A stretch of 39,797 bases of DNA, taken from assembly GCA_031254615.1 (NCBI GenBank), contig JAIRUC010000092.1, positions 1-39,797 on the forward strand, read 5' to 3'. The DNA is from Treponema sp. (GTDB lineage Bacteria > Spirochaetota > Spirochaetia > Treponematales > Breznakiellaceae). Each line of letters begins with the position of its first letter. The stretch's first letter is position 1. Below, piece after piece: positions 1,980 to 21,049 of the stretch. The notes below the pieces were generated by a model. The model saw only the letters and a program-made list of their open reading frames with translations, searched no databases and had not been told where the DNA came from. The position numbers and the translations under genes are program-made.

Positions 1980-2009
1980 ATTTTTATCCTATTAAAAAAA
2001 TCTTATATA

Positions 2010-2654
2010 TTAAAATACTCGTTTTGCAGGATTACCAAATACAGTACAATTAGGAGGAACATTTCTTATTACCACAGAACCAATGCCAATTTTACTATTT
2101 TCTCCGATGGTCTTATTCTGCAAAATTCTTGTGCCATTGCCGATTTCAGCACACGAACCAATAGTTACATTTCCAGAAACACTTACATTACCATACAAAG
2201 TTACAAAACTCTCAAGTTTTACATCATGGCCAATGGCACAATTATGATTAAGTAAGACAAAATCACCTAGGAAAATATTCGCAAGTAATGTAGAATGATA
2301 ACCAATAATACAACCTTTTCCAATCATAACAGTATCAGAATATTTTACATCATTTTCAATAATAGTAGGAAAAGAAATATTTTTTTTATAAGAAAACCTC
2401 TCATAAATTTGTTTCTTCGTTTGAGGGGTGCCAACTGCAATAGTAACATCAATATTGTCATTATAATTATGCAGCCAGGAATCGTCACCTAATACCGGAA
2501 AATTATTTATTATTTTATTTTGTAATTCAGGTGTATTGTCTATAAAACCCAGAATGTCATAGCAATTGTTTTTTTTATTTATATCTAATAACATAAATAA
2601 AATTTCACGGCCTAATCCTCCAGCACCTATAATTACCAGTTTTTTCTTTTCCAC
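2010..2654 (-). CDS. PglD/NeuD-like sugar O/N-acyltransferase (left-handed beta-helix)
   Basis: VEKKKLVIIGAGGLGREILFMLLD...; hexapeptide repeats; HNCAIGHDV with catalytic-type His. ORF track starts at 2771 but the N-terminal extension overlaps the upstream KASIII; GTG at 2654 preceded by GAGGAAAA is the better start. Confidence 0.85.
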   Translation of the reverse strand: MEKKKLVIIGAGGLGREILFMLLDINKKNNCYDILGFIDNTPELQNKIINNFPVLGDDSWLHNYNDNIDVTIAVGTPQTKKQIYERFSYKKNISFPTIIENDVKYSDTVMIGKGCIIGYHSTLLANIFLGDFVLLNHNCAIGHDVKLESFVTLYGNVSVSGNVTIGSCAEIGNGTRILQNKTIGENSKIGIGSVVIRNVPPNCTVFGNPAKRVF

Positions 2655-2665
2655 TACATTTTCCT

Positions 2666-3667
2666 CTATAGAATTTTTAACACACACCCCGCCCACGAAA
2701 GACCAACACCAAAACCAGCAAGTAAACTTTTCATTCCTCTTTTCAAACTTCCGGTTTTTATTGCTTCGCACATCGCAATGGGGATTGTCGATGACACACT
2801 ATTACCCACTTCAGATAAATAGATATAAAATTTTTCCTGTTCAATTTTCAGTTTTTTCCTCAAAAAATCCAACATATATTTATTAGCCTGATGAAAAATG
2901 AATAAATCAATGGCATCTTTTTCAATGTTATTTTTATTAAGCGTATTATTTACCAAATCAGGAACGGCAGCCAGAGTAAAAGAAAATATTTCACTGCCGT
3001 TCATGTATATATAATCAGGTGAAATCGGATTATTGTTTTCATCAAATTCAACTGTATTGGACTTTTCAGGATTACGCGCTGCCCCAGTTTTCATTATCAG
3101 ATGTTCAGCACCGGAACCATCAGTTCCTAAACAGAATTCTCCTATTTCAGCAAAACCTTCGGTACTTATCAGCGTAGCAGAGGCTGCATCGCCAAAAATC
3201 GTCCGGTTACCCTTATCCAGCATATGTAACCTCTTGGTATAAATCTCAGCGGTAAGTAAAAGAACATTTTTCGCGATATTCCCCAATATCAACCCTTTTG
3301 CAAGGGACAAACCGTAAACAAAGCCGGAACAGCCCTGATTAAAATCTATTGCGCCTATATCCTTCGACAGTCCTAACCGATCCTGTATTATACAGGCGGA
3401 AGCCGGCAGAAAATAATCAGGGCTTTGGGTGCAAAATAAAATATAATCAATACTTCCTTTATCAATACCTTGATTAAATAGTTTTTGTGCGGCTTCAATT
3501 GCCAAATCTGTTGAGGTTTCATGTTCCGCGGCAATATGCCGTTTATTTATCCCTACTTTCTCAATTATTTTATCTACACTCCATTCGGGAAAATCCTGAA
3601 TTAATTCCTCGTTGGTCAATACTTTTTGCGGCAGATAATAATCTATAGCCTTGATATAAGCATTCAT
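2666..3667 (-). CDS. 3-oxoacyl-ACP synthase III (KAS III/FabH-like)
   Basis: 333 aa; DFNQGCSGFVYG (Cys), FIFHQAN (His), EVGNSVSSTIP (Asn); C-terminal GFGVGLSWAG. Confidence 0.92.
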   Translation of the reverse strand: MNAYIKAIDYYLPQKVLTNEELIQDFPEWSVDKIIEKVGINKRHIAAEHETSTDLAIEAAQKLFNQGIDKGSIDYILFCTQSPDYFLPASACIIQDRLGLSKDIGAIDFNQGCSGFVYGLSLAKGLILGNIAKNVLLLTAEIYTKRLHMLDKGNRTIFGDAASATLISTEGFAEIGEFCLGTDGSGAEHLIMKTGAARNPEKSNTVEFDENNNPISPDYIYMNGSEIFSFTLAAVPDLVNNTLNKNNIEKDAIDLFIFHQANKYMLDFLRKKLKIEQEKFYIYLSEVGNSVSSTIPIAMCEAIKTGSLKRGMKSLLAGFGVGLSWAGCVLKIL

Positions 3668-3685
3668 TTTTATTCAATTTCCAAT

Positions 3686-4435
3686 CTAATAAGAAACAGA
3701 TCTTCCTCCATCAAGTAATAAATTTGAACCGGTTACCCAACTGCTTGCATCAGATAATAAATAAATTACTGCATATGCAACTTCTTCTGGTTTCCCATAT
3801 CTTTTTAAAGGATACTTCTCTTTATCTTTTTCAAAATCTTCTTTCGATAAAGTCCCACCCTCCATAATAGGAGTATCTATCATACTTGGCATAACACTGT
3901 TTACTCGTATACTTTTAGGAGCTAACTCTATACACATACCTTTGATCATTCCATTTAATGCTCCCTTTGTTGAAGAATACAATGAACCACCAATATAAGA
4001 GGATAAAATTCCAGATGTAGAAGTGATAAAAACAATTGATGAATTTTTCTTTAATTTTTTGTTTTTTAATATGGATTGAGTTAAGTACAAAGGTGAAAAG
4101 TAATTAATGCTAAACATTTGTTCGATTTCATTTTTCTTTAAAAAAGAAAAAAGAGAATGTCCTGAAATTCCTGCACAATTTACTAAACCATCAAGCATTG
4201 GCAAATTATCAACTATTTTTTTTCTTTCATCCTCATTATTCAAATCGGCCACAATAATAGTATGAGCTTCCCTTTCCATTTGCGATATGGTTTCGTTTAA
4301 ACGTTCTTTGTTACGTCCGGTCAAAACTACAGTTGCATCCATCTTTGAACATTCAATAGCTATAGCTCGTCCAATTCCCGAAGAAGCGCCTGTTACCAGT
4401 ATTGTTTTCCCTGTCAGTGAAAATGGATTGTACAT
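3686..4435 (-). CDS. SDR oxidoreductase, 3-oxoacyl-ACP reductase (FabG)-like
   Basis: 249 aa; VTGASSGIGRA cofactor motif, NCAGISG, ITSTSGI...YSSTKGAL (Ser-Tyr-Lys). Confidence 0.9.
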   Translation of the reverse strand: MYNPFSLTGKTILVTGASSGIGRAIAIECSKMDATVVLTGRNKERLNETISQMEREAHTIIVADLNNEDERKKIVDNLPMLDGLVNCAGISGHSLFSFLKKNEIEQMFSINYFSPLYLTQSILKNKKLKKNSSIVFITSTSGILSSYIGGSLYSSTKGALNGMIKGMCIELAPKSIRVNSVMPSMIDTPIMEGGTLSKEDFEKDKEKYPLKRYGKPEEVAYAVIYLLSDASSWVTGSNLLLDGGRSVSY

Positions 4436-4436
4436 C

Positions 4437-5498
4437 TTACATCTCTATCAATGGCGGACAAACAATATGGTCTGTCGTAAAATACATACTACCCCAAGAA
4501 AGCCCAACACCAAAACCGCAGGCAATATGCTGCAATTTATTGTTACTCATATCTTTTTGCAATTCTGTAATCATAGTGAGAGGAATAGAGGCGCTACTGG
4601 TATTTCCAAATTCCTTCAATGAGTAAGGAACTTTTTCAGGAGGCAATTTCAGTTTTTTCCGTATTTGTTCATTCATAAAAAGATTTGCCTGATGGAAGGT
4701 AAAATAATCGATCTTATCTTTATCAAGGTTGAATCTTTCAATTAACCCATTAACAGACTTAGGCGCCTCTCTTATTCCAAAGGAAAACACATTCATCCCA
4801 TCTAACATTACTTGTAGGTTATTAGAAACAATTCCTTCACCGCGCTCGACTTCATCTAATGATGATAATGAAACAAGATTCCGGTAACCTCCATCATTTA
4901 TCATTATTGCATTATATCCGCTTCCATCAGAATTCATACTAAAAAATATAGGCTCGGCATCCGGCTTATACTCTAATGCTGTCACTGTGCCTGCATCTCC
5001 AAAAAGAGGATAGGTACTTTTATCATTTGGGGACACCATCTTTGATGGAGTATCCCCAACCAACAATAAGGCTTTTGCTTTGTGGGGGGTAATATTCATC
5101 ATCAATGTGCTAATAACACTCATCCCATAAACCCAGCCGCTGCATCCCAAAGAAACATCCAGTGTATAACAATCTTTACCAAGCCCTAATCTTTGCTGAA
5201 TAATAGAAGAAGTAGCGGGCAAAATATAATCAGGTGTCTGTGTAACAAACACCACTATTGAAATATCTTCTTTGATCCAGCACAAGTTTGAAATCAAAGT
5301 TTCTGCGGCAGATACACATAAATCCGATGTACAGACATTATTATCTGATTTTCTTCTCCGTTCAATTCCGGTAGTGGCGACAAAATTTTTTAAGCCATCA
5401 TCATCAAAAAAGGAACAAGAGGCATTATCTTCTATTTGTTTTGGAACACAAGCAGAAATGCCACTTATTTTTACATTTTCTATTTTTAAAAACGCCAT
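4437..5498 (-). CDS. 3-oxoacyl-ACP synthase III-like, second divergent paralogue
   Basis: 353 aa; DVSLGCSGWVYG (Cys), FTFHQAN (His), EFGNTSSASIP (Asn). Confidence 0.9.
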   Translation of the reverse strand: MAFLKIENVKISGISACVPKQIEDNASCSFFDDDGLKNFVATTGIERRRKSDNNVCTSDLCVSAAETLISNLCWIKEDISIVVFVTQTPDYILPATSSIIQQRLGLGKDCYTLDVSLGCSGWVYGMSVISTLMMNITPHKAKALLLVGDTPSKMVSPNDKSTYPLFGDAGTVTALEYKPDAEPIFFSMNSDGSGYNAIMINDGGYRNLVSLSSLDEVERGEGIVSNNLQVMLDGMNVFSFGIREAPKSVNGLIERFNLDKDKIDYFTFHQANLFMNEQIRKKLKLPPEKVPYSLKEFGNTSSASIPLTMITELQKDMSNNKLQHIACGFGVGLSWGSMYFTTDHIVCPPLIEM

Positions 5499-5731
5499 TA
5501 CGACTTGTATTCCTTCACAATATTGAACAAGTCTTCAATGGTTTCAGATTTTCTGATGTCATCACCTTTAATGGTAACACCGTATTCATCGTCTACCATT
5601 GCGATAATCGACAGAGCAATCATGGAACTCCAGTCAACCAATCCCCTAAATTCCGTATCCGCTTTGAACTCACTTGCATCAGTTTCATCAAACTGTTCCG
5701 CAAATTTTCCTACAAATTCCTGTAAATCCAT
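5498..5731 (-). CDS. Acyl carrier protein (stand-alone, variant Ser motif)
   Basis: 77 aa acidic; LVDWSSMIALSIIAMVDDEYGVTI aligns with the ACP phosphopantetheine helix; SSM replaces DSL. Overlaps the KASIII start by 1 nt. Confidence 0.85.
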   Translation of the reverse strand: MDLQEFVGKFAEQFDETDASEFKADTEFRGLVDWSSMIALSIIAMVDDEYGVTIKGDDIRKSETIEDLFNIVKEYKS

Positions 5732-5761
5732 AATAATCTCCTTTTAATTTGTATTATATAA

Positions 5762-6466
5762 TCATTTCAAATATATTTCAAGTTCTTTAGGCGTCGGTGG
5801 TAAATTATCAAATGCCCTTATCCAGAAATCAGATGATGAATTCAACACACTAATTGCTGTAAAAAAAATTATTTTGAAATATAATACTAACCCAATATTC
5901 TGGGTATACCATTTTTCAAGTTCACCTTTATATGGAATAATCATATTTCTATAAAAATCTTCTTGATCTTTCACTTTTTGCATTATTTCTTCCTCATTCC
6001 GGAAAACAATCGATCCAATACCGGATAAGCCTGGATTAAAATTATACAACTGCTGTTTGACTTCATCAGAATATTCTTCATATCCTTCCCGTACTAATGG
6101 CCGATACCCTATAATACTCATCTGCCCGATAAAAATATTTATAAGCTGCGGCAGTTCATTAATTTTGGTTTTTCGTAAAAACTTACCTAACGGTAATATT
6201 CTTGGATCATTTTTATAGGTAAATATTCCTCCGGGTAAATTAGGAGAATCCCTTAACATCGTGGCAAACTTTAACAGATTGAATTCTTTCCCATAACGGC
6301 CAACACGTTTTTGTCTATAAAAAATATCATGTTCTCCTGTCAATTTTAATATAATCATTATAGGAAACATAAGCGGAAATAATACAATTATTGCAAAAAA
6401 CGAAAAAAGAATATCAAAAAATCGTATTAAATAAGATTGATATTTTTTGTTAAGCATAAATTCCAA
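5762..6466 (-). CDS. Undecaprenyl-phosphate sugar phosphotransferase (PglC/WcaJ-type bacterial sugar transferase)
   Basis: 234 aa; single N-terminal hydrophobic helix, FYRQKRVGRYGKEFNLLKFATM, KTKINELPQLINIFIGQMSIIGYRPL, FNPGLSGIGSI. Confidence 0.92.
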   Translation of the reverse strand: MEFMLNKKYQSYLIRFFDILFSFFAIIVLFPLMFPIMIILKLTGEHDIFYRQKRVGRYGKEFNLLKFATMLRDSPNLPGGIFTYKNDPRILPLGKFLRKTKINELPQLINIFIGQMSIIGYRPLVREGYEEYSDEVKQQLYNFNPGLSGIGSIVFRNEEEIMQKVKDQEDFYRNMIIPYKGELEKWYTQNIGLVLYFKIIFFTAISVLNSSSDFWIRAFDNLPPTPKELEIYLK

Positions 6467-7280
6467 AATCTATATTAAGTGTATGATGCAATCCTCTCGA
6501 ATTTACAGGCGGTGGAGTTAAATAATCACCATATTGTTCACTTAAAAATAAGTGATAATCCTCCGGAACAGGCATCAGCGTATCCTCAAATGGTATATAT
6601 ATTATTTTTGAAATTGTAGAACGCAGATGTCGTTCCTTCTTGAAGCCCCAACGTCCTCTTAACAAAACAACATGACTACTATTAAGTTTTTCATATTTTT
6701 TATAATAATTCTCCAAAATTGATTTAAGCTTTTTAGTTGAAATTGGTAAACACAAAACAAAGCCTAAATATATTATTAAACGCATTATAAAATTTTGGGG
6801 GTAAAGATGGTATCCATTACGTAGTACACATACCCGGATAAAAATATTAAAAATACCATGATACAAATAACCACGTAAAAACGAATTAGGTATATTATCA
6901 TAAGGTAATATATCTATTCGAAAACCCTCATGTTTCATATTAGCAGGTTCATATCTTGTAAAAACTTTCGTACCATTTAACTGGACACGGGCAAGACAAT
7001 AATCAAAGTATTGGGGATCTGTTGATGGGGTCTGTAAAAAAAATTCATTTGATAGTTCAGATGGCGCAATCTTGCAAAATTTGTCGTAATTGTCCCTTGT
7101 CATGCCAACATCTATATCATCATCCCAAGGGATAAAACCTTTATGCCGGATAGCTCCGATAAGGGAGCCGCCAATTAGAATGAAAGCGATGTTATGTTTA
7201 TCACAGACTCTTTTTACTTCCACAAGAATTTTTAATTCAAGGAGCTGCATTTTTCGTAAAATTTCAGGTGTTATTTCCAT
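6450..7280 (-). CDS. LicD family phosphotransferase
   Basis: 276 aa; [55 protein letters not shown] is the LicD nucleotidyltransferase-fold signature. Confidence 0.92.
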
Positions 7281-7665
7281 TTTTTATCTCCATCTTTATT
7301 TGCGTAGTAGATATTTCAGGCGTCCTTTCAAGATAAACGACCTCACATTGTTTTTTTAAAAAGTCAAATTTTTCTCTCCAATCATCACCCATTACAAAAA
7401 TATCAACATGATATTGATGAATATCGGTTTTCTTTTGCTCCCAATTTTCTTCCGGTATAACCAGATCAACATATCTAATTGCCTCAAGCAGTTGCTTTCT
7501 TTTCTCATACGAATAATAACATTTTTTATTTTTTTCAGTAAGGTTAAATTCATCTGTTGATAAAGCTACAATCAGATAATCTCCAAGAGCTTTAGCTCTT
7601 CTTAACAGATTAATGTGACCATAATGGAGAAGATCAAATGTTCCGTAAGTGATTACCCTTTTCAT
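7264..7665 (-). CDS. Glycerol-3-phosphate cytidylyltransferase (TagD-like)/cytidylyltransferase family protein
   Basis: 133 aa; [24 protein letters not shown] (HxGH), [11 protein letters not shown]. Confidence 0.88.
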
Positions 7666-7676
7666 CTTATGAATAA

Positions 7677-8654
7677 CTATTTCCCGTTTCTTATATTAGA
7701 TAGTAAATTTTGAATACTTGAATAAATACATCCTAAGAAAAAACATTTTTTGTATATTATAATTAGTGTCTTACAAAAAAAACTTAATTTTCTTTTTTCT
7801 GTAAAAGGAAGATAATATTCATTATATAAATATTCAATATCTTTTTTATTTATTTTTTTTGAAAAACGTAAAAACTTAAATACCCCGATTTGCAGAAAAT
7901 CAAATGTAAATGAATGCTCTACATCAGAAAATAAATTATGTTCTGTTAAATAATTTTTTATCCATAAACGGAATTTTATTCTTGGATACTCATAACAATT
8001 ATTACATACAATTTTTTTGAGAGCTGTTAAATTAGTATTTGTAATACGATTATAATAATATACTATATCACTAATGACCGCGATATTTTTATATTCACAG
8101 TGTGTAAATATTTGAATATTTACTATAGCATCTTCACCTACATTGAATTCCGGAACTTCATAATCATTAAAACAGCTTTTTCTGTATAACTTACCTACAA
8201 GATATCGCATTTGATATTCATAAAATGACGCATTCAATGGTGAATCATATTTTTTTATACTTGAAGGCTCATAAATTTCTTCTCGGCGGGGAAATATTGT
8301 TTTATATCCTCCAATAACAATATCTGCATTTGATTCTTTTTGTTTTTTCAACAAAGCATCTATTGCATTTTCGCTTATCCAATCATCACTATCAACATGA
8401 ATAATAAATTCTGCTTTAGCTATATCTATGCCCGTCTTTCTTGCTTTTGGTAGTCCTTCATTTTTTATTTTATGAATTACTTTTATACGATTATCTTTTG
8501 CCGCATATTCATCGCAGATTACAGGACAATTATCAGGAGAAGCATCATCAATAAGGATGCATTCAAAATTTGTAAAAGTCTGTGCTAATATGCTGTCAAT
8601 ACATTTGCGAAGATATACTTCTACATTATAAACAGGAACTATAATTGAAACCAT
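7677..8654 (-). CDS. Glycosyltransferase family 2
   Basis: 325 aa; [43 protein letters not shown]...[16 protein letters not shown]. Confidence 0.93.
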
Positions 8655-8672
8655 GGTAATTTTTCCTCTATT

Positions 8673-9851
8673 TTAATTTGTTTTATGATAATTTTTTATT
8701 GATAAAATGTAATAAAAACATAATAAATTATAACCCATAGTAAACCCCCCTAAAAATAATGACATAAATAAATATGAATATATATATTTATAATTGCTTA
8801 CTCTAGTATATTGATTCATAATTACAAATAATAAAATACAATTTATAATACTAAAAATAATTCCCTTTTCTACAAATAAACCCAGAAATGAATTATGAGC
8901 TGGTCCCCATATTATTTTAGCAGTTCCCTTTCCATTTCCTCTTTGCCAATATTCTTCTCCTGCCCCATCAATAACAGCCATCCTTGTCCCTGATGATAAA
9001 AATAATAAACTTTGTGCACTAAATGTAAATCGTGCTATATTTGAATCATCTTGTAAAGAGAATGTGTCTCTATCTGATTCCGATTTTGCAACGTTAATAA
9101 ACCAAGCCCCAAATAATAATACAGCTATTTGAAAAAAAACAAGCACAAATATTGGTTTTACCTTAGAAAATATTTTTTGAAAAAAAGGGATACTTTCAAA
9201 ATAACCAATTATATAAAATACCATAATCCCTAATATAAAATTTCTACTTTGAGTTAATAATCCTAAAAACAAAAAAATGTATTTTAATCCACTATATCTT
9301 AATTTATAGGATAATAAAAAACATAAAAAGAAATACAATGCCGAATAATTCGGATCATTAGAATTGAATATCATTCTGGTTGTCAGCCGGCTCTTATGAA
9401 TATCATAAAAAAATGTACCCTGTAAAAAAGAAGATAATAAACTAATAAATATTATTAAACTAAAATAACTTCTTTTCATATATCTTTTTGCATCTATTTC
9501 TTTAGGCCCAAAAATGAAGGGGAAAAAAATAATAACCCGCATTAAATCGGAAAAAGAAAAAGAGCCACGAAAATAAAAAAGTAAAAATATAAAAATTGTA
9601 CCTATCAGAATAATAAAAAAATTTTTTATATTTATGAATATATTATCATATGAACAGATTATATATAATAATAAAGCAAACCATAAAATTATATAGATTA
9701 AATATCTTAAATAAACTATATCCAAAAAAAACATTTTTGGCTGCTCATTACTTATATAATAATTAGACAACATTGCTATTGTAAAACATACAGTTAATGA
9801 TAATTCAAAAATGAAACTACAATCTGATAATTGATTTGATGTCTTAATCAT
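8673..9851 (-). CDS. Polytopic membrane protein, candidate O-antigen polymerase (Wzy-like)
   Basis: 392 aa, many hydrophobic segments; NDPNYSAL and GPAHNSFLGLFVEKG motifs resemble O-antigen ligase/polymerase families; position between GT2 and other glycan genes. Confidence 0.7.
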   Translation of the reverse strand: MIKTSNQLSDCSFIFELSLTVCFTIAMLSNYYISNEQPKMFFLDIVYLRYLIYIILWFALLLYIICSYDNIFINIKNFFIILIGTIFIFLLFYFRGSFSFSDLMRVIIFFPFIFGPKEIDAKRYMKRSYFSLIIFISLLSSFLQGTFFYDIHKSRLTTRMIFNSNDPNYSALYFFLCFLLSYKLRYSGLKYIFLFLGLLTQSRNFILGIMVFYIIGYFESIPFFQKIFSKVKPIFVLVFFQIAVLLFGAWFINVAKSESDRDTFSLQDDSNIARFTFSAQSLLFLSSGTRMAVIDGAGEEYWQRGNGKGTAKIIWGPAHNSFLGLFVEKGIIFSIINCILLFVIMNQYTRVSNYKYIYSYLFMSLFLGGFTMGYNLLCFYYILSIKNYHKTN

Positions 9852-10906
9852 TTGAATACATCACGTAGAAATGAAATAGATTCTTTACGTTTTTCATTTA
9901 ATGTATTATTTACATTATTATAATCAATATCTTTCAATGTTTCCAAATTGGTATCAAAGCCCAAACGGTTTAACAATTTAAATTGAGATAAGACATTATA
10001 AAGACGATTATTTCTTTTTTCATCATGATGATTATACAGAAAAAAATATTTATTAAAAATTATAGATAAGACAAGGCCATGAAAAGAATTTGTAAAAACA
10101 TAGTCCGCATATTGAATATATGACAAGAAATCTTGAATTCCTGCGTTTGAAATAATTTTATGTTTGATTTTCAATAATCGTTTAAAAGGAAAACCATATG
10201 TTATTTCTATAACTTTTAATTTTTCCTTTTTTGCCAGTTGATATGCCTCTTTAATAACTTTGTCATTTTTACCCATACAATAAACAATAATATAATTTTT
10301 GAATTTTCTTTTAGCTGAAAATTGCTTCCAGAAATTATCATTGAATAAAAAAACTGGATCCAATACTGTTTGAGGATAAAGATTATATCGCTCTAAAACG
10401 GGAAGCATAGTTGGTTCTCTTACTGAAATCATGTCTACACATACTAAATATTTTCTTAATAATGATGGCTCAACATCATCCAGATGGCCGCCGTCACTAA
10501 CAGCATAAGTAATTACTTTTCCTGTAAAGCCCCTAATCATTCCAAAATAGCATGGATCAAGTCCTTTTGTAATTATTGGATTCCATATTTGATCGCTGCC
10601 ACATACAATATAGTCAAGAGTATGTACTTCATCAATACTAATAAACTTAATATTTCTTTTTCTGAAAAAATCAAACATTATTTTTCGCCGCAAGGACATA
10701 GGCAATTGTATAATTGAATTTATAAATGTAAATATACTTTTAAAATTAATAATATTATATATATGTGTAATAGTTTTAGGCCGATAATCAAGAATAAATA
10801 CTTCATTGGGAGCAAATAATTCACTTATTTTTTTATACAATGCGAATGCCTGCAATAAAGCACCATAGTTATTCGCGCAATGAACAGTAATTATACCTAT
10901 TTTCAT
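9848..10906 (-). CDS. Polysaccharide pyruvyl transferase family protein
   Basis: 352 aa; MKIGIITVHCANNYGALLQAFALYKKI...VCGSDQIWNP...TNSFHGLVLSIIF. Confidence 0.9.
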   Translation of the reverse strand: MKIGIITVHCANNYGALLQAFALYKKISELFAPNEVFILDYRPKTITHIYNIINFKSIFTFINSIIQLPMSLRRKIMFDFFRKRNIKFISIDEVHTLDYIVCGSDQIWNPIITKGLDPCYFGMIRGFTGKVITYAVSDGGHLDDVEPSLLRKYLVCVDMISVREPTMLPVLERYNLYPQTVLDPVFLFNDNFWKQFSAKRKFKNYIIVYCMGKNDKVIKEAYQLAKKEKLKVIEITYGFPFKRLLKIKHKIISNAGIQDFLSYIQYADYVFTNSFHGLVLSIIFNKYFFLYNHHDEKRNNRLYNVLSQFKLLNRLGFDTNLETLKDIDYNNVNNTLNEKRKESISFLRDVFK

Positions 10907-12093
10907 ACTTTGTTTTTTATCCTTTTCATTAATGTATATAGACCTAATTTTTTAAGTACAAATACTATAATTCTTCTATAAAGAGGCGGTGTTATTAATT
11001 TTTCAATCAATGATATAATATTACCATTGTTCATTTCTTTAAAAAAATGATCACGTTTAGATGATAATTTAAGGGATTGTTCAAGAACAATATTTTTACT
11101 TAAAGCATCTTTATAAGAAGTTTCTTTTTCATCCCTTTCTAAAACAGTATAATAATTATTTCCTTTTTGAGTATTTATAATAACACAACTAATTCCTTTA
11201 TCATCATCAAATTCAGGTTTAATATTTTGTATCCTCCAATAATCCCCAATTGTAATATCACTGCCGCTTTTAAAAAATCTAACAGGACAATTATGACATG
11301 ATGGCCGAATAAATAAACCTTCATAAAAACCTCTTATATAAGAGTTTTTATTCCATAATTCACTATATGAACTATATTCTATATTGTTCTGTGCTATACA
11401 ATTTATGGTAAAACTAAATGTTTTCCATCCATATTTCTTATCACGAAAACTTATTTCTTTGATTAGACTAGGATTGTTTAAAGGAATATTATTCAAAATT
11501 TCAGCAAGATATTTTCTCCAAACTAAAGGGCTTGGAACTCCTTCACATATTAGATCAACCGTCAGAAGATTATCGTAATCTTTCTTTAAAAAAGCTTTTA
11601 GCCCTGAAACCTGACAAGGTGTTCCTGAAAAAAGAACTCTTCTTCCTGTTACCAAGAAATCTTCAACTTTTTTATATGTATCATTAACTTTACTCTGGAC
11701 ATATTTTGAACCGCGAAATACCGATAATATTCCTATCGTTTCTGTATAATCATGTATTACTTCCCAGTTATCGTTAAATCGTGCTCCAAATACAACGCCG
11801 CCTTCATGGATTATATGTTCTGCAAGCAGGGTAAACATTCCTCCAGATGAACTCTGTCTTCGTATTTCCTCATTAGGATTTTTCACGGCATATACGTGTA
11901 ATGGTTTTCTTTCGCTTTGCTGCGTGATCACAGGGCAGCTTTTTTCACATTGTTTACATTGGGTACATTTTTCCTCGTCGATAAGTGGATACAAAAATCC
12001 TTCTGTATCCTCTTTCATTGAAATACAATGAACGGGACATATTGAATAACAAGCGGAACAACCTGTACAAAATTGTTTGTCAGCAAGTTTCAC
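10903..12093 (-). CDS. Coenzyme F420 hydrogenase/dehydrogenase beta-subunit-like (FrhB family) Fe-S protein
   Basis: 396 aa; CTGCSACYSICPVHCISM and CTQCKQCEKSCPV (two 4Fe-4S motifs), RRQSSSGGMFTLLAEHII, SGTPCQVSGLKAFL. Confidence 0.88.
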   Translation of the reverse strand: MKLADKQFCTGCSACYSICPVHCISMKEDTEGFLYPLIDEEKCTQCKQCEKSCPVITQQSERKPLHVYAVKNPNEEIRRQSSSGGMFTLLAEHIIHEGGVVFGARFNDNWEVIHDYTETIGILSVFRGSKYVQSKVNDTYKKVEDFLVTGRRVLFSGTPCQVSGLKAFLKKDYDNLLTVDLICEGVPSPLVWRKYLAEILNNIPLNNPSLIKEISFRDKKYGWKTFSFTINCIAQNNIEYSSYSELWNKNSYIRGFYEGLFIRPSCHNCPVRFFKSGSDITIGDYWRIQNIKPEFDDDKGISCVIINTQKGNNYYTVLERDEKETSYKDALSKNIVLEQSLKLSSKRDHFFKEMNNGNIISLIEKLITPPLYRRIIVFVLKKLGLYTLMKRIKNKV

Positions 12094-13619
12094 TATATTC
12101 TCCCTTTAAAAATATATTTACCTATTACGCTTTTTACTTTTTGTTGTTCTTCTCCGTTCAATCCTATAAAATAACTATAAATACATACTGAAATAATACT
12201 CAAACCTGTTACAAGACATAACCGTAACATATTTTGTGGTAAGATATAACAAAATATTATTGGCAGAATAGCGGATACTACCGAAATAACACAAATAGGT
12301 GTTACAACCATTCTTAAAAATTGTCGTATAGAATAATCAATTAGTCTCTTTAATATCAATAACCGCACTATACACGCTATAAATGTTAAAACAATTGCCA
12401 CAATCATCGCTGAATACGCCGGCGCTCCCATAAGTAAAAATATCCATACTATTGGCACATTCAATAACAATATTCCTCCGACTACAGCCTGATAAAGCCT
12501 TATCTTGCCCGTAGCATGCGCCGCTGTCATTATTGGATAACTTAGAGAATTAATGAGTACATCGAATAACATCAATCGCGTAAAAAGCACAGCATATTCC
12601 GGCGGATTTTTGAGCCAAAGTGTAAGAACTATCGGCATCTCAAGTACAAGAGGCAAAACAAAAAGATACATCAGCAAGTATGTACCTTTTGCACCGCGAA
12701 ACACCAGAGAAAACATAGCTTCTTTTTGTTCGGCAGCATAGCTTTTAATTATCTGAGGACGTATTGCGGTACTGAAGTTTTGGGAAAAACTCATTGCAGC
12801 GCTATCTACCATTGCTGCAATACTGCGGGCAGCAACTACCACCGGATTAAAAAATTGATTTAGCATAATATTTACTATCTGGTTTTTGAATATACCCGCT
12901 GACGCTCCAAACATATTCCATCCGGAATAGCCGGCAATTTCTTTAAATAGATTTTTATTCCAATAGAAAGAAAATTTGCATACGTTATATTTTTTCATAC
13001 AAATTGCTCTATAAATAGCTGTTATTGTTACGACAACAGCTAACATTAATATACCGTATAGAAAAAGTTTATCCCATGAGATTGCACGTAATATAAAGAC
13101 AATCCCCAATTTTAATAAAGCCTCGACAATTGACACATACGCATAAATGTTCATGTCTTCGTGGGCGATAATCATTGCCATATACGGGCTGGTTAGCACA
13201 GTAAAAAGAAACGATATTATTGAAAACTGATATACCCACAGTGCCGCGCTTTCCCTTTCCAAGGGTATTACCAATTTATTGCTTACGAACCACAATCCTA
13301 TTGTTTCGCCCAGTAATAAAATTACAACTCCAATCAGAACATAAATTAAAAGACTTAAACTGAATACTTTTTTTAGCTGCTCAAAATCACCTCTCCCCAA
13401 TTCAAATGAAAAATAACGCTGGCTGGCTGTCGCCATTGAGCCGCTCAAAAAGCCAAACATGGTAACAACGCCTGCTACCACATTATAAATCCCGTAATCT
13501 TCCACGCCCAAGGTATTCAGCACCACCCGCACAGTGTACAGGCTTACCAGCATAATCAGAATTTGCCGGAAGTAGAGCGCGAGTGTGTTTTTGGCTATAC
13601 GGGTTGTATTAGAGGGCAT
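12093..13619 (-). CDS. Polysaccharide flippase (Wzx/MATE-like, MVF superfamily)
   Basis: 508 aa polytopic; RQILIMLVSLYTVRVVLNTLGVEDYGIYNVVAGVVTMFGFLSGSMATASQRYFSFELG. Confidence 0.88.
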   Translation of the reverse strand: MPSNTTRIAKNTLALYFRQILIMLVSLYTVRVVLNTLGVEDYGIYNVVAGVVTMFGFLSGSMATASQRYFSFELGRGDFEQLKKVFSLSLLIYVLIGVVILLLGETIGLWFVSNKLVIPLERESAALWVYQFSIISFLFTVLTSPYMAMIIAHEDMNIYAYVSIVEALLKLGIVFILRAISWDKLFLYGILMLAVVVTITAIYRAICMKKYNVCKFSFYWNKNLFKEIAGYSGWNMFGASAGIFKNQIVNIMLNQFFNPVVVAARSIAAMVDSAAMSFSQNFSTAIRPQIIKSYAAEQKEAMFSLVFRGAKGTYLLMYLFVLPLVLEMPIVLTLWLKNPPEYAVLFTRLMLFDVLINSLSYPIMTAAHATGKIRLYQAVVGGILLLNVPIVWIFLLMGAPAYSAMIVAIVLTFIACIVRLLILKRLIDYSIRQFLRMVVTPICVISVVSAILPIIFCYILPQNMLRLCLVTGLSIISVCIYSYFIGLNGEEQQKVKSVIGKYIFKGRI

Positions 13620-13646
13620 TGTTTACAAAACTTAGCGGTTTTTGAC

Positions 13647-14402
13647 TCATTGTAGATCTTTAAATGTATAGAATTTCAACTCAAGTTCTCGACATTTCTG
13701 CAAAACAAATTCCAGCCTCTCAAGAGTTATTCCCCAATCATTGGTAGTACCTATGTTATGCGTAATTAACGGCATATATTGTTTTTGGTCTTTAGCCGCC
13801 GTTAATATTCTTGTAACTCGGGACTCAAAAATATCATCTGAGCATCTATGGTTGTAATTGTCAAGTGATGTTGAACGTACAAATCCTGATTTCATTTGAT
13901 TTCTGCTATAAAGATGATAATTGGGATAGGGAGAAGCAGCTGTACCACGTAATACTTTATAGTAATTCAACAATAAATTATTTGTATTAGCAGAATGGCT
14001 GCCATATGGATATGCAAATGTTGTCAACTCTATTCCTTCCTCTCTAAACATAGGGATATGAGAAACTGCTTCAATCAACAAGTCTTCGACTGAAAGAATC
14101 GATGCATGTAAATGATGAATGGTATGGTACCCTATTTCATGCCCAAGATCTTGCGCGTCGCGGCAAAAATCAAAGTCAACTCCATATCTTTCATCAACAA
14201 AAAATACTACTTTTGCATCATATTCAGAAAATAATGGAAAACCATTCTGCCTCCATTCAGTAAAATGGAAATCATCAAATGTTAAAATTATTCCTCCCTC
14301 ATATTCATCTGATTCATCCTGTAGACCAGATGACTCCTCGCAAGAAGAATAACCCAATAAAACAATGCCACAAATTATTAAGGAAATAAAAAAAGATTTC
14401 AT
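13647..14402 (-). CDS. Polysaccharide deacetylase (NodB-like), exported, possible lipoprotein
   Basis: 251 aa; MKSFFISLIICGIVLLGYSSC signal/lipobox-like; LTFDDF, GYHTIHH, FAYPYGSHS motifs. Confidence 0.85.
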   Translation of the reverse strand: MKSFFISLIICGIVLLGYSSCEESSGLQDESDEYEGGIILTFDDFHFTEWRQNGFPLFSEYDAKVVFFVDERYGVDFDFCRDAQDLGHEIGYHTIHHLHASILSVEDLLIEAVSHIPMFREEGIELTTFAYPYGSHSANTNNLLLNYYKVLRGTAASPYPNYHLYSRNQMKSGFVRSTSLDNYNHRCSDDIFESRVTRILTAAKDQKQYMPLITHNIGTTNDWGITLERLEFVLQKCRELELKFYTFKDLQ

Positions 14403-14418
14403 ATTTTTTCCTTTGTTT

Positions 14419-15501
14419 TTATATCTTTACCGTATACTTCATTCCGGTACTGGGCTCCACCAGAAAATTTTCGATAACAAAATTAACATCGCCACTTTCG
14501 ATACCATCATTCAGCCTGACCGTAATAGTCTGGGTACTCTGTGATCTTATAACATAAGGATAAAGGGTATAATTACGAAAATATGTTAATCGCTTGTCAT
14601 GACTGGTCTCTCTTAAATTAAAAACCAAATCAGATTTATTTTTAAAAGTAATACGCGCTGTGTTACCGGTTTTTGTCACGCTTATATCTACCGCATTTTC
14701 GAAAAGTTCTTTCAGATATATTTCTTCACCAATGACATATTGATTGTAATAAACCGCCGTTCGTCGTTCTTTTAACGCCTCATAAATAGCTTCGGAGGTT
14801 TTGTTACGGGCAAATACAAGTGTCATTGTACGATGATTTCCGGAAGTAAAAACCTGCATAGGCTCATGAGTGTCAGTATTACCAAACATGGTTAGTTTTT
14901 TTTCAAGGCACCATTGATGCGCTTCGGGGGAATAGGTTCCATTTACAACTTCAATGCCTTGCATAATTCCCTGCTCCAGTAATTTTGTGTGTTCCGGCCA
15001 CCACAAAGTGGTATCGGGCTGCTGCCTTTCCCAGTGCGGATGATTCCAAAAGATAAAGGCATTTTGAGCTTGGGCAGCACGAAAAATATCCATATACCCA
15101 GGCTTATCCAATTTATCAACATCGGTAAGAAATATAGCGTTGAAATGTCCCGGAGGCATATTACGGGTAATCTCGCAGCCCTTAACAAGAATCATACCTC
15201 TGGACTTGGCAGTAGGCTCGGCTACTTCATACGAACGATTATGTGAACCATTTATATCCTTACTATGCGGATGCCAATCAATATGATCGGTAATTGCTAT
15301 TGCATCCAAGCCTTCACGGTAAGCTTCTTCTATTCGTACTGTAGGCCAAACATTCCCATCCGAAAAGACCGTATGTATATGGAAATCACATTTGAGCGTG
15401 ACATAGCCGTTTAAGTTGGGGATAACAATGCCCCTTGACTGTGCGGATAACGGAAAAATTATGCAAATTACTAAAAGTAAAACCAATATTATTTTTTTCA
15501 T
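14419..15501 (-). CDS. PHP-domain phosphodiesterase (Sb-PDE-like family), exported
   Basis: 360 aa; signal peptide MKKIILVLLLVICIIFPLSAQS; DFHIHTVFSDG, AITDHIDWHPH, NTDTHEPM metal-binding motifs. Confidence 0.82.
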   Translation of the reverse strand: MKKIILVLLLVICIIFPLSAQSRGIVIPNLNGYVTLKCDFHIHTVFSDGNVWPTVRIEEAYREGLDAIAITDHIDWHPHSKDINGSHNRSYEVAEPTAKSRGMILVKGCEITRNMPPGHFNAIFLTDVDKLDKPGYMDIFRAAQAQNAFIFWNHPHWERQQPDTTLWWPEHTKLLEQGIMQGIEVVNGTYSPEAHQWCLEKKLTMFGNTDTHEPMQVFTSGNHRTMTLVFARNKTSEAIYEALKERRTAVYYNQYVIGEEIYLKELFENAVDISVTKTGNTARITFKNKSDLVFNLRETSHDKRLTYFRNYTLYPYVIRSQSTQTITVRLNDGIESGDVNFVIENFLVEPSTGMKYTVKI

Positions 15502-15590
15502 AGTGGGTCAAGCTCCTTTGAGCACTTCTCTATAACACCAATACAATCATTCCCTTGCTGCCATGAGCCAGATGAACCTAGCGCCATCTA

Positions 15591-16127
15591 TCACAGATCA
15601 AACTCCGGATGCGCTTTATCTTTGTCAGAAAGGATATAATCCATTCCCAAATCCGGCCATTTAATGCCAATAGTCGGATCGTTCCAGATAATTCCACATT
15701 CGTCTTCGGGAGTGTAAAAGTCGGTACATTTGTAGGTGAAGAGCGCAGTGTCGCTTAACACCAGAAAACCGTGGGCAAAACCTTCAGGGATATAAAACTG
15801 ATTCTGCTTTTCTCCGCTAAGGATAACAGAATACCATTGTCCGAAAGTCGGTGAATCCTGGCGGATATCAACAGCAACATCAAAGATTTCTCCTTCAATT
15901 GCGCGTACCAGTTTAGCCTGCGGCTTTTTTTTCTGATAGTGCAGACCGCGCAGTACGCCTTTTACGGAGCTGGACTGGTTATCCTGCACAAACTGTGCGG
16001 CAATACCGGCATCTTCGTAAGACTTTTGCGAGTAACTTTCCATGAAATAACCCCGATTATCTCCGAACATTTTTGGCTGTATTTCAAACAGGCCGGAAAT
16101 AGGGCAAATAGAAAATGAAAACTTCAT
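15591..16127 (-). CDS. rfbC: dTDP-4-dehydrorhamnose 3,5-epimerase (RfbC/RmlC)
   Basis: 178 aa; DNRGYFMESYSQKSYEDAGI...FVQDNQSSSVKGVLRGLHYQ...FYIPEGFAHGFLVLSD. Confidence 0.92.
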   Translation of the reverse strand: MKFSFSICPISGLFEIQPKMFGDNRGYFMESYSQKSYEDAGIAAQFVQDNQSSSVKGVLRGLHYQKKKPQAKLVRAIEGEIFDVAVDIRQDSPTFGQWYSVILSGEKQNQFYIPEGFAHGFLVLSDTALFTYKCTDFYTPEDECGIIWNDPTIGIKWPDLGMDYILSDKDKAHPEFDL

Positions 16128-16212
16128 TAACTTTCCTCCGTTATATATTTTATATTATTACCGTATCCGGTTCCAGCCGCATACGCTTGGCTTGATATTT
16201 TTTGCAATTGCA

Positions 16213-17355
16213 TTACTTTAAAGCCCTAACCAATGCGGCGCAAACAACATCAACATCGCTTTCCATCATATCAGGATACAGGGGCAATGTTAACTCATGG
16301 GCGCAGACATATTCGGCTTTTGGCGTCTTGTTAATTTTATTTTTATAAGCACTAAAACCCTGAATAGCCGGATAATGGATGCTTGTTTGTACCCCGTCCT
16401 GTTTCATGGATTGAATAACCGCGGCCCTGTCTGTCGTCTCAGAAAGCAGAATGGGCATTATATGATAATTCGGCTTTCCCCGTGAAAAATGCCTGTAAGG
16501 AATTGAAACCGAAGGAATATTGTCGAGCCGCTCAAAATAACGCTCCACAATTTTTTTACGTTTGTTGTTCGCTTCTTCGAGCTTTTGCAGTTGGACAAGG
16601 CCAAGGGCAGAACTTATTTCGTGAATACGGTAATTTAAGCCCGGCGATTCTACGTCATAAGAGACCGCCCTGCCCTTATAACGGTCAAACGAAAGGACGG
16701 ACATTCCGTGAGAACGCAGACCTTTCAGCTTATTAAACAATTCCTGATCACGCGTAACAACCATGCCGCCCTCGCCTACTGCTATATTCTTGTTGCCAAA
16801 GAAACTGAAAGCGGAAATATCGCCAAAAGTGCCCAGCGCCTGTCCTTGATTCGAAGAATCGTTGTAACATGCCCCAGGCGTATGGGCGCAGTCTTCTATA
16901 AGAAGCAGATTATGCCGCTTACACAAACCGGCGATACGTTCCATATCACAGGCGAAGCCCGCATAATGGACGATCATTACAGCCTTTGTTTTTGGCGTAA
17001 TTTTCGCTTCGATATCATCCGGGTCCATTGACCAGTCTTCCATCGAAGTTATATCGGCAAGGACATTTTCGGCGCCAACCATTTGGGTAACGTTCTGATC
17101 GGCAACAAAAGTAAGAGAAGGGGTGATTATTTCATCGCCCCCGCCTAGGCCGCAGACTAAAAGAGCCATGTGAAGCGCCGCAGTACAGTTTGAAACCGCG
17201 AGACATCGCACATCATGCCCCAAAAAAGCGGCAAAAGCGGCTTCAAAATCATAGGTCTTCTGGCTGATTGTAAGCCAGCCAGAATCAAGAACCTCTTTTA
17301 CAGACTGATATTCTCTTTCGTCGTAATTTATTTTATGAAGCTGTACTTTCCACAT
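16213..17355 (-). CDS. DegT/DnrJ/EryC1/StrS PLP-dependent sugar aminotransferase
   Basis: 380 aa; SNCTAALHMALLVCGLGGGDEIITPSLTFVADQN; LLIEDCAHTPGA; SFFGNKNIAVGEGGMVVT (PLP Lys). Confidence 0.92.
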   Translation of the reverse strand: MWKVQLHKINYDEREYQSVKEVLDSGWLTISQKTYDFEAAFAAFLGHDVRCLAVSNCTAALHMALLVCGLGGGDEIITPSLTFVADQNVTQMVGAENVLADITSMEDWSMDPDDIEAKITPKTKAVMIVHYAGFACDMERIAGLCKRHNLLLIEDCAHTPGACYNDSSNQGQALGTFGDISAFSFFGNKNIAVGEGGMVVTRDQELFNKLKGLRSHGMSVLSFDRYKGRAVSYDVESPGLNYRIHEISSALGLVQLQKLEEANNKRKKIVERYFERLDNIPSVSIPYRHFSRGKPNYHIMPILLSETTDRAAVIQSMKQDGVQTSIHYPAIQGFSAYKNKINKTPKAEYVCAHELTLPLYPDMMESDVDVVCAALVRALK

Positions 17356-17670: not shown

Positions 17671-19401
17671 ATGCCGGAAACAGCTATCAATCAAGAAGAT
17701 CTTGACCTTCACTGGATGGAAGAAGACGCGGAACTGGGCATTCCATCGGAGGGAATATACTGTAAAAACCTGGACGAGCTTTCAAAATATATCTCTGATG
17801 TAAAAAACACGGTAGTAAAAATCAATTTGGATAACCAGCCTGCCCTTAAGCAAATTCCACCTGTTTTGGGTGAGTGCATACGACTTGAAAAACTCGACAT
17901 ATCCCACACAGAAATTACAGAGATTCCGGATTTTTTATTTTCCCTGCCGAATCTGCGTTCTCTTTCCTGTTGCTGCAATCGGCTTAGCTGTCCTCCCAGC
18001 GGCTTTTCAAAAGCCAAAAAGCTGGAAAATCTGCATATAAGGATTAATGAAGGCTGGGCCTTTCCGGATGAAATAACCGCCCTGCCGGAACTAAAAAACC
18101 TTAACATTGATTTATACAAAAATATCGCTCTGCCGGAATCCATCGGAAATCTTGAAAAGCTGGAAACATTAACTCTGTCGTTAAAATACAAAGGAGGGGA
18201 CTGTGAGCCTTTGCCCAAATCTTTATCCGGGCATGACGCTTTAAAAAAAGTCAGCGTTAGTTCATTTTTTAACAAAGAAAAAACGTATGATCTTGACAGA
18301 ACAGCAGAGATGCTTGCTTCATGCCCTAAACTGGAATCTCTTTTACTTTCCGGCCTTAAAATTGAAGGCGGGCATGAGGCTCTTTCAAAACTTGCCGGTT
18401 TAAAAGAACTGAAGCTGGAACATTTGCACATTGACGGAAATGTTTTTACCATGCTCCCTGCTCTTTCCAAACTTGAAAAACTGATAATATGGGGCAGTGA
18501 ATTTAAAATAACCAAAATGCCCGATATTTTTGAAAGCCTGCCGAAACTACGGATATTTTCTTTTTCGGGCAATTTTGTACGCGATCTGCCGCCGTCACTC
18601 TACTCTCTTAAAAATTTGACAGAGCTGGAAATTGACAGCGCCGGTATTGCCGTGATAGACAAAAAAATAGGAGAGCTGAAAAACCTTAAAAAATTTCATT
18701 TTCAGGACAATGTGCTGGAAACCCTGCCTGAATCTATTTTTACACTGCCTAATCTTGCGATTCTGGATATCGAAGACAATCTTATTGTGCAAAAAGAACT
18801 TATGAAGATAAATGAGAACCTTATCCATCTTCACAAAAAAGGACAGAGGGTAGCGTTCTTTTACAAGGGACAGGGTGTTAATTACAAAATAAAACGTCTT
18901 CGCTCTGTTAATAGTACAGATGAAACGGATATTGACACCTATTATAAATATTGCCTTGAAGCGGTGTCCGAAGACCCTCATGCCATTCAATATGTTGAAA
19001 AAGACAAATTAAAAAACAACCAGCATTATTATGCCGCCCTTTGCGCCGCAGCGGTGGGCAAAAGCTGTTTTGCTTTGGAATATATAAATATCGAAACATT
19101 GGGACATTCGTCATATTTTAGCGTTTGTATGCAGGCGGCAAAAAGCTCCAACATCGGGCATATTTTTAAGCGTATCAGGGATGATCTGTTAACCGACATT
19201 GAATATACCAAAGTGTGCATAGAAGCTGCTCTGCATAACAATTCGGCGGATTTTCTTTCCCAAATAAACATTAAACGTTTCAGCCGTGCAGACTACGAGC
19301 GTATCTGCTGGGTTTCCATTTTACATAACCCTGCAACAATTTCCAAAGTAGATAATCCCAGTAATGAACTTCGCAAACTTGCTGAGAGACAAAATAGGTA
19401 G
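17671..19401 (+). CDS. Leucine-rich-repeat protein with C-terminal tandem ~30-aa repeats (DUF4116-like pattern)
   Basis: 576 aa; LRR units such as LEKLDISHTEITEIPDFLFSLPNLRSLSCCCNRL and LPKLRIFSFSGNFVRDLPPSLYSLKNLTELEID; last ~150 aa show five YxxxC-centred repeats. No signal peptide. Confidence 0.85.
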   Translation: MPETAINQEDLDLHWMEEDAELGIPSEGIYCKNLDELSKYISDVKNTVVKINLDNQPALKQIPPVLGECIRLEKLDISHTEITEIPDFLFSLPNLRSLSCCCNRLSCPPSGFSKAKKLENLHIRINEGWAFPDEITALPELKNLNIDLYKNIALPESIGNLEKLETLTLSLKYKGGDCEPLPKSLSGHDALKKVSVSSFFNKEKTYDLDRTAEMLASCPKLESLLLSGLKIEGGHEALSKLAGLKELKLEHLHIDGNVFTMLPALSKLEKLIIWGSEFKITKMPDIFESLPKLRIFSFSGNFVRDLPPSLYSLKNLTELEIDSAGIAVIDKKIGELKNLKKFHFQDNVLETLPESIFTLPNLAILDIEDNLIVQKELMKINENLIHLHKKGQRVAFFYKGQGVNYKIKRLRSVNSTDETDIDTYYKYCLEAVSEDPHAIQYVEKDKLKNNQHYYAALCAAAVGKSCFALEYINIETLGHSSYFSVCMQAAKSSNIGHIFKRIRDDLLTDIEYTKVCIEAALHNNSADFLSQINIKRFSRADYERICWVSILHNPATISKVDNPSNELRKLAERQNR

Positions 19402-19548: not shown

Positions 19549-19983
19549 ATGACGAAGATTTCCGAACGCTGTCGAAAAATTCTCAGAACGGTTTTTCGCG
19601 GTATTGGCGTATCGGTGGTTTCGCTGATTATTCAGGCATGTTACGGCATACTGCCTCCGGATGAACCCGGTTGTGAATACGGAATGCCTCCCCCGGATTA
19701 TATCCAGGAAATTTCGATCCGTGGAACAGTAACGGCAAAGAAAACCGGAAATCCTATTTTCGGGATTCGAGTTTCTGTTGTAATCGAAGAAACCGAGTAT
19801 TGGGAGCGTACCGACAAATATGGATATTTTAGTCTCTGGGTTCCGGTTCAGGATGTTTATCAGTTAAAAATTGAAGATGTCGATGGCACATACAATGATG
19901 GCCTGTTTAAGGAACAAACATGGACGCTTAAACATAACGATACATACAGCACCCTATTGATAGGTATGGATATTGAGGAGTAA
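19549..19983 (+). CDS. Putative lipoprotein of the rSAM/lipoprotein type
   Basis: 144 aa; hydrophobic stretch then SLIIQAC lipobox-like; EYGMPPPDYIQEISIRGTVTAKKTGNPIFGIRVSV resembles rSAM-associated putative lipoproteins; overlaps the following rSAM gene. Confidence 0.75.
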   Translation: MTKISERCRKILRTVFRGIGVSVVSLIIQACYGILPPDEPGCEYGMPPPDYIQEISIRGTVTAKKTGNPIFGIRVSVVIEETEYWERTDKYGYFSLWVPVQDVYQLKIEDVDGTYNDGLFKEQTWTLKHNDTYSTLLIGMDIEE

Positions 19984-21049
19984 ATTTTCACATTTTATTT
20001 TTAATCTGTACCGATATAATGAAACGCAGCTTCATCAGTTAAAGTATCTGTTTTGGGAATGTACACGCCGCTGTAATTTAAATTGTATTCACTGCGGTTC
20101 GGATTGTTCTGCAAACGCCCAAAATCAGGATATGCCTTTTGATGATTTTCTGAATGCGATACTGCCCTACGCCGAATCAAATGCAAAAGAACGCATCGTC
20201 ATTGCCATTACCGGAGGTGAACCTTCCTTGCGGGAAGACCTCTCCGATTGCGGGCGCAAACTTCGCGAGCACGGGTTTTTGTGGGGCATGGTAACCAACG
20301 GATACAATTACACAAACAATTTGCATTCAAAACTGATGTCAGCAGGATTGGGTTCCGTTACAGTGAGCCTTGACGGTTTTGAAGCCTCGCACAACTGGCT
20401 TCGCGGCAGCCCGCAAAGTTTTAACAGAGCGGTCAAGGCGATTGATATTATCGCATCCACACCCCGGCTTACTTACGACATTGTAACCTGCGTCAATCAA
20501 AAAAACATTGATGAGCTTGAAGCGTTTAAAGATTTTTTAATCCGGCACAAGGTAAAAGCATGGCGGCTGTTTACGATCTCGCCAATCGGGCGTGCGGCCG
20601 ATAACCCCGACTTACATTTGAGTCCAGATCAATTACGTTGGCTGATGGATTTTATTGTCCGCTCACGCGCCGATAACCGCATTAAGGTATACTTTAGCTG
20701 CGAAGCTTACACCGGCGATTACGAAGGAAAGGTACGCGACGGTTATTTTTTTTGCCACGCCGGTATCAATATCGTTTCGGTTTTAATTGACGGTTCAATT
20801 TCCGCCTGCCCGAATATCGACCGGCATTTTATTCAGGGAAACATTTACAGTGATAATTTTCAGGATGTGTGGAATAACCGCTTTGAAGTAATGCGCGATC
20901 GCAGATGGACAAAAACCGGACTTTGTAAAAAATGCCGCGACTACCGCAACTGCAAAGGAGGCGCTATGCACCTGTGGAATGAAAAGCAGGACGGCATTAT
21001 GCGCTGTATTCATCGTGACATAACGGACAAAACAGAAGCTGTTCCATGA
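19973..21049 (+). CDS. Radical SAM/SPASM protein, rSAM/lipoprotein system type
   Basis: 358 aa, TTG start; LKYLFWECTRRCNLNCIHCGSDC (CxxxCxxC), AITGGEPSLRED, SPASM-like C-terminus CPNID...GLCKKCRDYRNCKGG. Confidence 0.9.
   Translation: MRSKFSHFIFNLYRYNETQLHQLKYLFWECTRRCNLNCIHCGSDCSANAQNQDMPFDDFLNAILPYAESNAKERIVIAITGGEPSLREDLSDCGRKLREHGFLWGMVTNGYNYTNNLHSKLMSAGLGSVTVSLDGFEASHNWLRGSPQSFNRAVKAIDIIASTPRLTYDIVTCVNQKNIDELEAFKDFLIRHKVKAWRLFTISPIGRAADNPDLHLSPDQLRWLMDFIVRSRADNRIKVYFSCEAYTGDYEGKVRDGYFFCHAGINIVSVLIDGSISACPNIDRHFIQGNIYSDNFQDVWNNRFEVMRDRRWTKTGLCKKCRDYRNCKGGAMHLWNEKQDGIMRCIHRDITDKTEAVP

Follow-up and report, generated by a model that had tools for sequence, protein, structure and literature searches.

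The window analysed here is a stretch of 39,797 nucleotides from contig JAIRUC010000092.1 of a draft genome assembly (GCA_031254615.1) of the Treponema group. Its closest named relatives are Treponema MAGs, and the names of isolates, together with the related taxa, suggest a termite-gut habitat. Two overlapping genes on the forward strand encode a small lipoprotein-like protein and a radical SAM (rSAM)/SPASM enzyme, with the following features:

19549..19983, + strand: lipoprotein-like substrate candidate, 144 aa, TIGR04134-like (ORF; TIGR04134; PF13620)
19564..19641, + strand: signal/hydrophobic segment, residues 6-31, ending QAC31; proposed rSAM recognition leader (AlphaFold helix 6-31)
19639..19647, + strand: candidate site 1, C31-Y32-G33, the lipobox Cys then Tyr-Gly (sequence)
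19675..19689, + strand: candidate site 2, E43-Y44-G45-M46-P47, X-Y-G-x-P consensus (YGxP conservation among neighbours)
19708..19980, + strand: transthyretin/carboxypeptidase-regulatory-like beta domain, residues 54-144 (AlphaFold pLDDT mostly >90; Foldseek; alignment A2)
19973..21049, + strand: rSAM/SPASM enzyme, 358 aa, TIGR04133; proposed to be Tyr-Gly-directed and splicease-like (TIGR04133; AlphaFold)
20072..20095, + strand: CxxxCxxC of the radical SAM [4Fe-4S] cluster (C34, C38, C41), then G42-S43 (homologue alignment)
20753..21007, + strand: SPASM domain cysteines C261-C345 (PF13186, 33.7 bits, cut-off 21.5)

The preliminary description of this locus had reported both ORFs, their 11-nt overlap, the TTG start of the enzyme gene, the QAC end of the hydrophobic segment, the CxxxCxxC motif and the Cys-rich SPASM tail, and all are present as stated. 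The lipoprotein ORF begins with ATG; the TTG start of the enzyme ORF was picked mechanically and the real start may be another. The 5′ neighbour of the pair (17671-19401, + strand) encodes a leucine-rich-repeat protein and the 3′ neighbour is a convergent gene, and the unit therefore appears to consist of two genes. The leucine-rich-repeat protein is 576 aa long and lies just 5′ of the pair on the same strand, and positions 1-17355 on the reverse strand hold an apparent surface-polysaccharide cluster, its ORFs read by eye only, with sugar aminotransferases, KAS III-like enzymes, a flippase, glycosyltransferases and an RmlC-like epimerase.

The enzyme matches TIGR04133 (NCBIfam) over profile positions 2-347 of 350 with 462.9 bits (E 5.8e-139), passing the cut-off of 425, and also exceeds the cut-offs of PF04055 and PF13186. 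Cysteines C34, C38, C41, C261, C279, C318, C321, C327, and C345 are invariant across 88 homologues. In the AlphaFold model (pLDDT 94.6) the rSAM domain is preceded by just a 20-residue helix, and its fold neighbours in the PDB are SkfB, BlsE, SuiB, anSME, and PqqE; no solved splicease structure for comparison was evident there by sequence or fold.

The lipoprotein matches TIGR04134 with 33.6 bits (E 3.4e-8), short of the cut-off of 39.8, and is therefore TIGR04134-like rather than a formal member; thus the TIGR04133/TIGR04134 assignment of the preliminary description holds in full for the enzyme in the HMM search and for the lipoprotein below threshold. The TIGR04134 family also calls for an adjacent TIGR04133 gene, and here the two genes overlap. 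TIGR04134 is matched at E <= 0.01 by 50 of 54 aligned lipoproteins (this one and neighbours in other genomes), and the match of this lipoprotein to PF13620 (E 2.2e-6) is under cut-off. Its hydrophobic segment ends SLIIQAC31, where a lipobox Cys at the IQAC end of the modelled helix is plausible for a spirochaete. Tyr-Gly (YG) follows at 32-33 and EYGMPPPDY at 43-51. Residues C31, Y32, and G33 are invariant in alignment A2, whose rows were selected for having YG, and the YG of site 2 is retained at two other loci (L003 and L004). In the AlphaFold model residues 31-50, containing both YG sites, have pLDDT values of 54-61 and form a linker between the signal helix and the beta domain. The best Foldseek matches of this domain are 9hfj (SusC N-terminal extension) and 6fb3 (teneurin), and assigning a function from the fold was abandoned, the matches being merely generic transthyretin/carboxypeptidase-regulatory folds. 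The domain also carries a DxDG..NG motif (residues 110-118; 19876-19902) that is strongly conserved in A2, with D110 invariant, and possibly binds metal. No lipoprotein paralogues were found in the same genome; a TIGR04134 profile search of that genome missed even this gene and is therefore insensitive to sub-threshold members.

Members of TIGR04133 scoring over cut-off occur in 14 of 100 relatives and in 8 of 297 Spirochaetia genomes; among Bacteroidales they occur in 87 of 393 genomes (97 of 393 at E <= 1e-60). Among the 58 Bacteroidales genomes with TIGR04134 over cut-off, 55 carry TIGR04133, compared with 97/393 overall (hypergeometric p 1.5e-36), as do 69 of the 80 with TIGR04134 at E <= 1e-5 (p 7e-42), counts and p values that ignore the relatedness of the genomes. 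These genome profile surveys confirm the earlier statements that the two families are linked and occur mainly in Bacteroidetes, and the adjacency survey that had been proposed shows the pairing to recur in Spirochaetota and Bacteroidales, so it is not due to chance. Spirochaetota and Bacteroidota sequences are intermixed in the enzyme tree, with about ten label changes required, a pattern that fits repeated transfer.

To compare partners we took 86 TIGR04133 enzymes sharing <85% identity; for 80 of them a neighbour that starts with a hydrophobic segment could be chosen, without regard to any motif. YG occurs within 60 residues past this segment in 68 of the 80 neighbours (shuffles: mean 19, maximum 33), where it is the most frequent dipeptide, and YGxP in 55 (shuffles: mean 1.1, maximum 5). 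The residue preceding YG in the 68 partners is C in 35, M in 10, E in 9, K in 5, L in 4, Q and A in 2 each, and V in 1. The twelve misses include wrong picks by the script at four loci (L015, L044, L100, and L111), each of which also holds a YG lipoprotein, and two Tyr-Ala variants (CYAPGG in L046 and CYASQ in L114). Of the lipoprotein-like ORFs in these loci, 37 of the 41 adjoining the enzyme have YG, versus 6 of the remaining 39 (Fisher 6e-12, computed without removing five of those six that are further members of the cluster). Partners lacking a lipobox Cys retain YG, as AAYGM in L015 and as the AQYG class in L081, L088, L182, L186, L189, and L192, and in partners of 53-100 aa without the beta domain the signal segment and YG are the sole common features. 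The spacing from Cys to YG is highly variable, reaching tens of residues. The conserved feature of the partners is thus X-Tyr-Gly-(x)-Pro just past the signal peptide, and partners can do without either the lipobox Cys or the domain. The pair in the commensal Parabacteroides distasonis (L136), for example, has the motif CEYGSPHANF. At several loci (L180, L182, L185, L225, and L226) YG lipoproteins occur in tandem, and some of these copies carry two or three YG sites, which suggests an expansion of substrates.

The signal segment is itself under unusual constraint. The 26 residues ahead of the Tyr are better conserved than the C-terminal domain in 37 of 45 Treponema-type pairs and in 28 of 28 ACYGTPQD-group pairs; this is clear in two of four groups and the pairs are not independent. 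Such conservation is unusual in signal peptides, which suggests that the enzyme may read the segment.

The motif is also maintained at a distance from the enzyme gene. Among TIGR04134 paralogues on other contigs of enzyme-bearing Bacteroidales, 11 of 12 retain YG. Three genomes with no detectable enzyme have lost YG or its Tyr and kept the flanking residues (G472, EPSNYPHKM; G888, GNGSPYAKF; G951, DNKTPHADY), while G810, a draft assembly in which the enzyme was not found, keeps YG in both copies; the Tyr is thus absent in three of four enzyme-less genomes, a comparison of small numbers and draft assemblies. YG is kept in G408, where enzyme fragments remain, one of them at a contig edge, and is missing from some neighbours or paralogues where the enzyme is present (L066, L181, L123, and, at L220, the second ORF). 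The direction of the loss is that expected for an enzyme target. In L190 and G408 (G408:C36:4-144) an enzyme fragment (profile 248-349) adjoins an intact YG lipoprotein, with a second fragment at a contig edge; this is a decayed locus, possibly accompanied by an intact second copy.

The evidence from these comparisons points to X-Tyr-Gly as the target of the enzyme, and the earlier proposal that the lipoprotein is its substrate is well supported.

As to the reaction, the best non-self NCBIfam family of the enzyme is TIGR04103, 'nif11-class peptide radical SAM maturase 3' (130.2 bits, E 7.7e-38, far from its cut-off of 725 bits), followed by MftC (1.4e-35) and then AhbD. We take TIGR04103 to be the family of PlpX (IPR026482), as supported by a Nostoc locus with a Nif11 precursor ending ALYGLPPELF, a TIGR04103 enzyme, and a 71-aa ORF. 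The enzyme is 28% identical to this Nostoc enzyme, which in turn is ~48% identical to TIGR03913 enzymes, whose DUF1843 precursors carry RPYGPAM, QPYGAGI, or RPMYMAT. A further relative, from Agathobacter (E 7e-37), has an upstream ORF ending PVMYGTGVRM. In an unrooted maximum likelihood tree, in which the outgroup was limited and TIGR04103 was represented by one annotated sequence, TIGR04133 joins TIGR04103, TIGR03913, and the Agathobacter enzyme, split with support of 99/94 from PqqE, MftC, TIGR04053, and others. MftC as the closest relative was rejected (AU test of a TIGR04133+MftC clade, p 0.015). The G42-S43 pair is common to the PlpX/GDL/Agathobacter group and rare in PqqE, MftC, and others; N109, R198, R207, and F286 are shared with MftC and absent from the PlpX group. 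The target of PlpX is X-Y-G (PMC10533398; PMC11002830), and excision of tyrosine from a backbone is rare, being to date, in the accounts available, demonstrated for small peptides and engineered tags. On this evidence the TIGR04133 enzyme would be splicease-like in action; yet sequence identity is low, its score misses the TIGR04103 cut-off, MftC alone shares some of its residues, and no PlpY/RRE-like ORF was seen on inspecting the ORFs adjacent to the pair, and therefore we do not file it under TIGR04103.

Several of the related loci are of interest in themselves. On an Agathobacter rectalis plasmid (NZ_CP143948) an unannotated ORF (L137:2728-2931) ending GPVMYGTGVRM adjoins a radical SAM gene, and probably encodes a spliceotide-like precursor of a human gut Firmicute, a 35-aa peptide from MFNLEELS. 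In L139, L144, and L145 the DUF1843 'GDL' peptides beside TIGR03913 enzymes have Tyr-Gly/Ala/Met close to their N-terminus, suggesting that they are likewise Tyr-directed substrates. A Tropicibacter oceani plasmid (NZ_CP124618; L148) encodes a TIGR04103-like enzyme, 47% identical to the Nostoc one, with no annotated precursor and with a phosphotransferase, a trypsin-like peptidase, and an M23 peptidase as neighbours. Bacteroidota radical SAM proteins at four loci (L127-L130) fall within the PlpX-type clade, and a YG neighbour is not evident.

Motif conservation establishes the site and not the reaction, and X-Tyr-Gly could be modified by other radical chemistry, such as a Tyr crosslink, C-beta functionalisation, or epimerisation, without excision of tyramine. 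The Tyr-modifying enzymes MftC and PqqE also match, and the several conserved residues in common with MftC would fit such a reaction. We nonetheless regard this as unlikely, because the tree of the sampled set groups the enzyme with the PlpX-type enzymes rather than with MftC or PqqE, and the Gly and Pro downstream of the Tyr agree with PlpX-type cores. Adjacency by itself does not prove a substrate relationship, and the families scoring close to the enzyme include the haem-modifying AhbD/NirJ, such that the enzyme could make a small molecule for which the lipoprotein acts as sensor, carrier, or partner; this is improbable given that conservation centres on a short motif of an unstructured linker, found in proteins without a common folded domain, kept in unlinked paralogues, and mostly lost where the enzyme is absent. 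SPASM enzymes frequently make thioethers, and the Cys that immediately precedes YG in 35 of 68 partners might suggest that the enzyme forms a bond, thioether or otherwise, at the lipobox Cys or within the Pro-rich segment, where the preliminary description had suggested looking for crosslinks; we consider this very doubtful and no longer the leading idea, since the Cys-less AAYG and AQYG partners keep YG and the Cys-YG spacing varies widely. That YG merely provides lipoprotein sorting or signal-peptidase context retained for export, as its position right behind the presumed lipidated Cys in about half of the partners might suggest, is the least credible explanation, YG being almost absent from other lipoproteins of the same loci, located as far as tens of residues away from the Cys, present even where the partner has no Cys, and without its Tyr in three enzyme-less genomes.

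We therefore favour, with a probability of roughly 0.57, the interpretation that the pair is a dedicated modification unit in which the enzyme would splice Tyr from the lipoprotein at X-Tyr-Gly before export. Because it lacks a signal peptide and depends on iron-sulphur clusters, the enzyme would act in the cytoplasm on the unfolded pre-lipoprotein. The conserved signal peptide would serve as the leader bound by the enzyme, with the flexible segment behind it entering the active site, and Tyr 32 and/or Tyr 44 would be excised at C31-Y32-G33 and/or E43-Y44-G45. Export, cleavage, and lipidation would come after splicing; by chemical reasoning the amine and thiol of Cys 31 would survive, so that signal peptidase II cleavage and lipidation should still be possible. 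The predicted product is an electrophilic ketoamide near the membrane anchor, which could serve to trap a protease or inhibit it, or could form a crosslink with another nucleophile. Protease inhibition has been reported for spliceotides (PMC10373908) and, by analogy, is our best guess for the function of the lipoprotein product, albeit a weakly held one.

This splicing unit would resemble several known systems and differ from each. Other members of the TIGR04133/TIGR04134 pair, whose function is undescribed in NCBIfam, likewise have an enzyme over cut-off, a TIGR04134 match, and adjacent genes, but the lipoprotein here is under the TIGR04134 cut-off and carries two YG sites. The PlpX-type spliceases (TIGR04103, IPR026482) are also rSAM/SPASM enzymes and share a clade with this one in the tree of the sampled set, and the partner motif X-Y-G-[LMTSV]-P, EYGMPPPDY in this lipoprotein, is reminiscent of the PlpX tag PLYGLPI and the Nostoc core ALYGLPPELF. 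PlpX operates together with PlpY, its RRE partner, for which there is no gene beside this pair; moreover its substrate is a Nif11 peptide rather than a lipoprotein, whereas the modified region here would be N-terminal to a folded domain and several substrates can be encoded away from the enzyme gene. The TIGR03913 'GDL motif' enzymes belong to the same clade and their DUF1843 precursors carry, close to the N-terminus, a Tyr with G/A/M behind it, but these small peptides lack a signal peptide. Mycofactocin MftC and PqqE are SPASM enzymes acting on Tyr of peptide substrates and share some residues with the enzyme, but lie on separate tree branches, act on short peptides, and have dedicated peptide chaperones (MftB and PqqD).

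The families themselves were already known, and the likely target, X-Tyr-Gly, appears to be new here: we found no paper naming TIGR04133/TIGR04134 or linking spliceases to lipoproteins, in a search that did not cover the survey of Scott et al. (2022), and it seems rather unlikely, if far from negligible, that this survey already assigns TIGR04133 to the spliceases. We put at even odds the broader proposal that TIGR04133 is a large RRE-independent branch of the spliceases, present in about one quarter of Bacteroidales and scattered Treponema, that acts on signal-peptide-bearing substrates, several per genome, and would place alpha-keto-beta-amino acids beside the lipid anchor. A family of undescribed function in approximately one quarter of the sampled Bacteroidales thus gains a specific prediction, a loss of ~135.07 Da at X-Tyr-Gly. 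If true, backbone splicing would extend beyond peptide natural products to an export-linked modification of cell-envelope proteins, the enzymes might need just a signal peptide and YGxP and so be of use in protein labelling, and the envelopes of gut bacteria would carry a reactive ketoamide.
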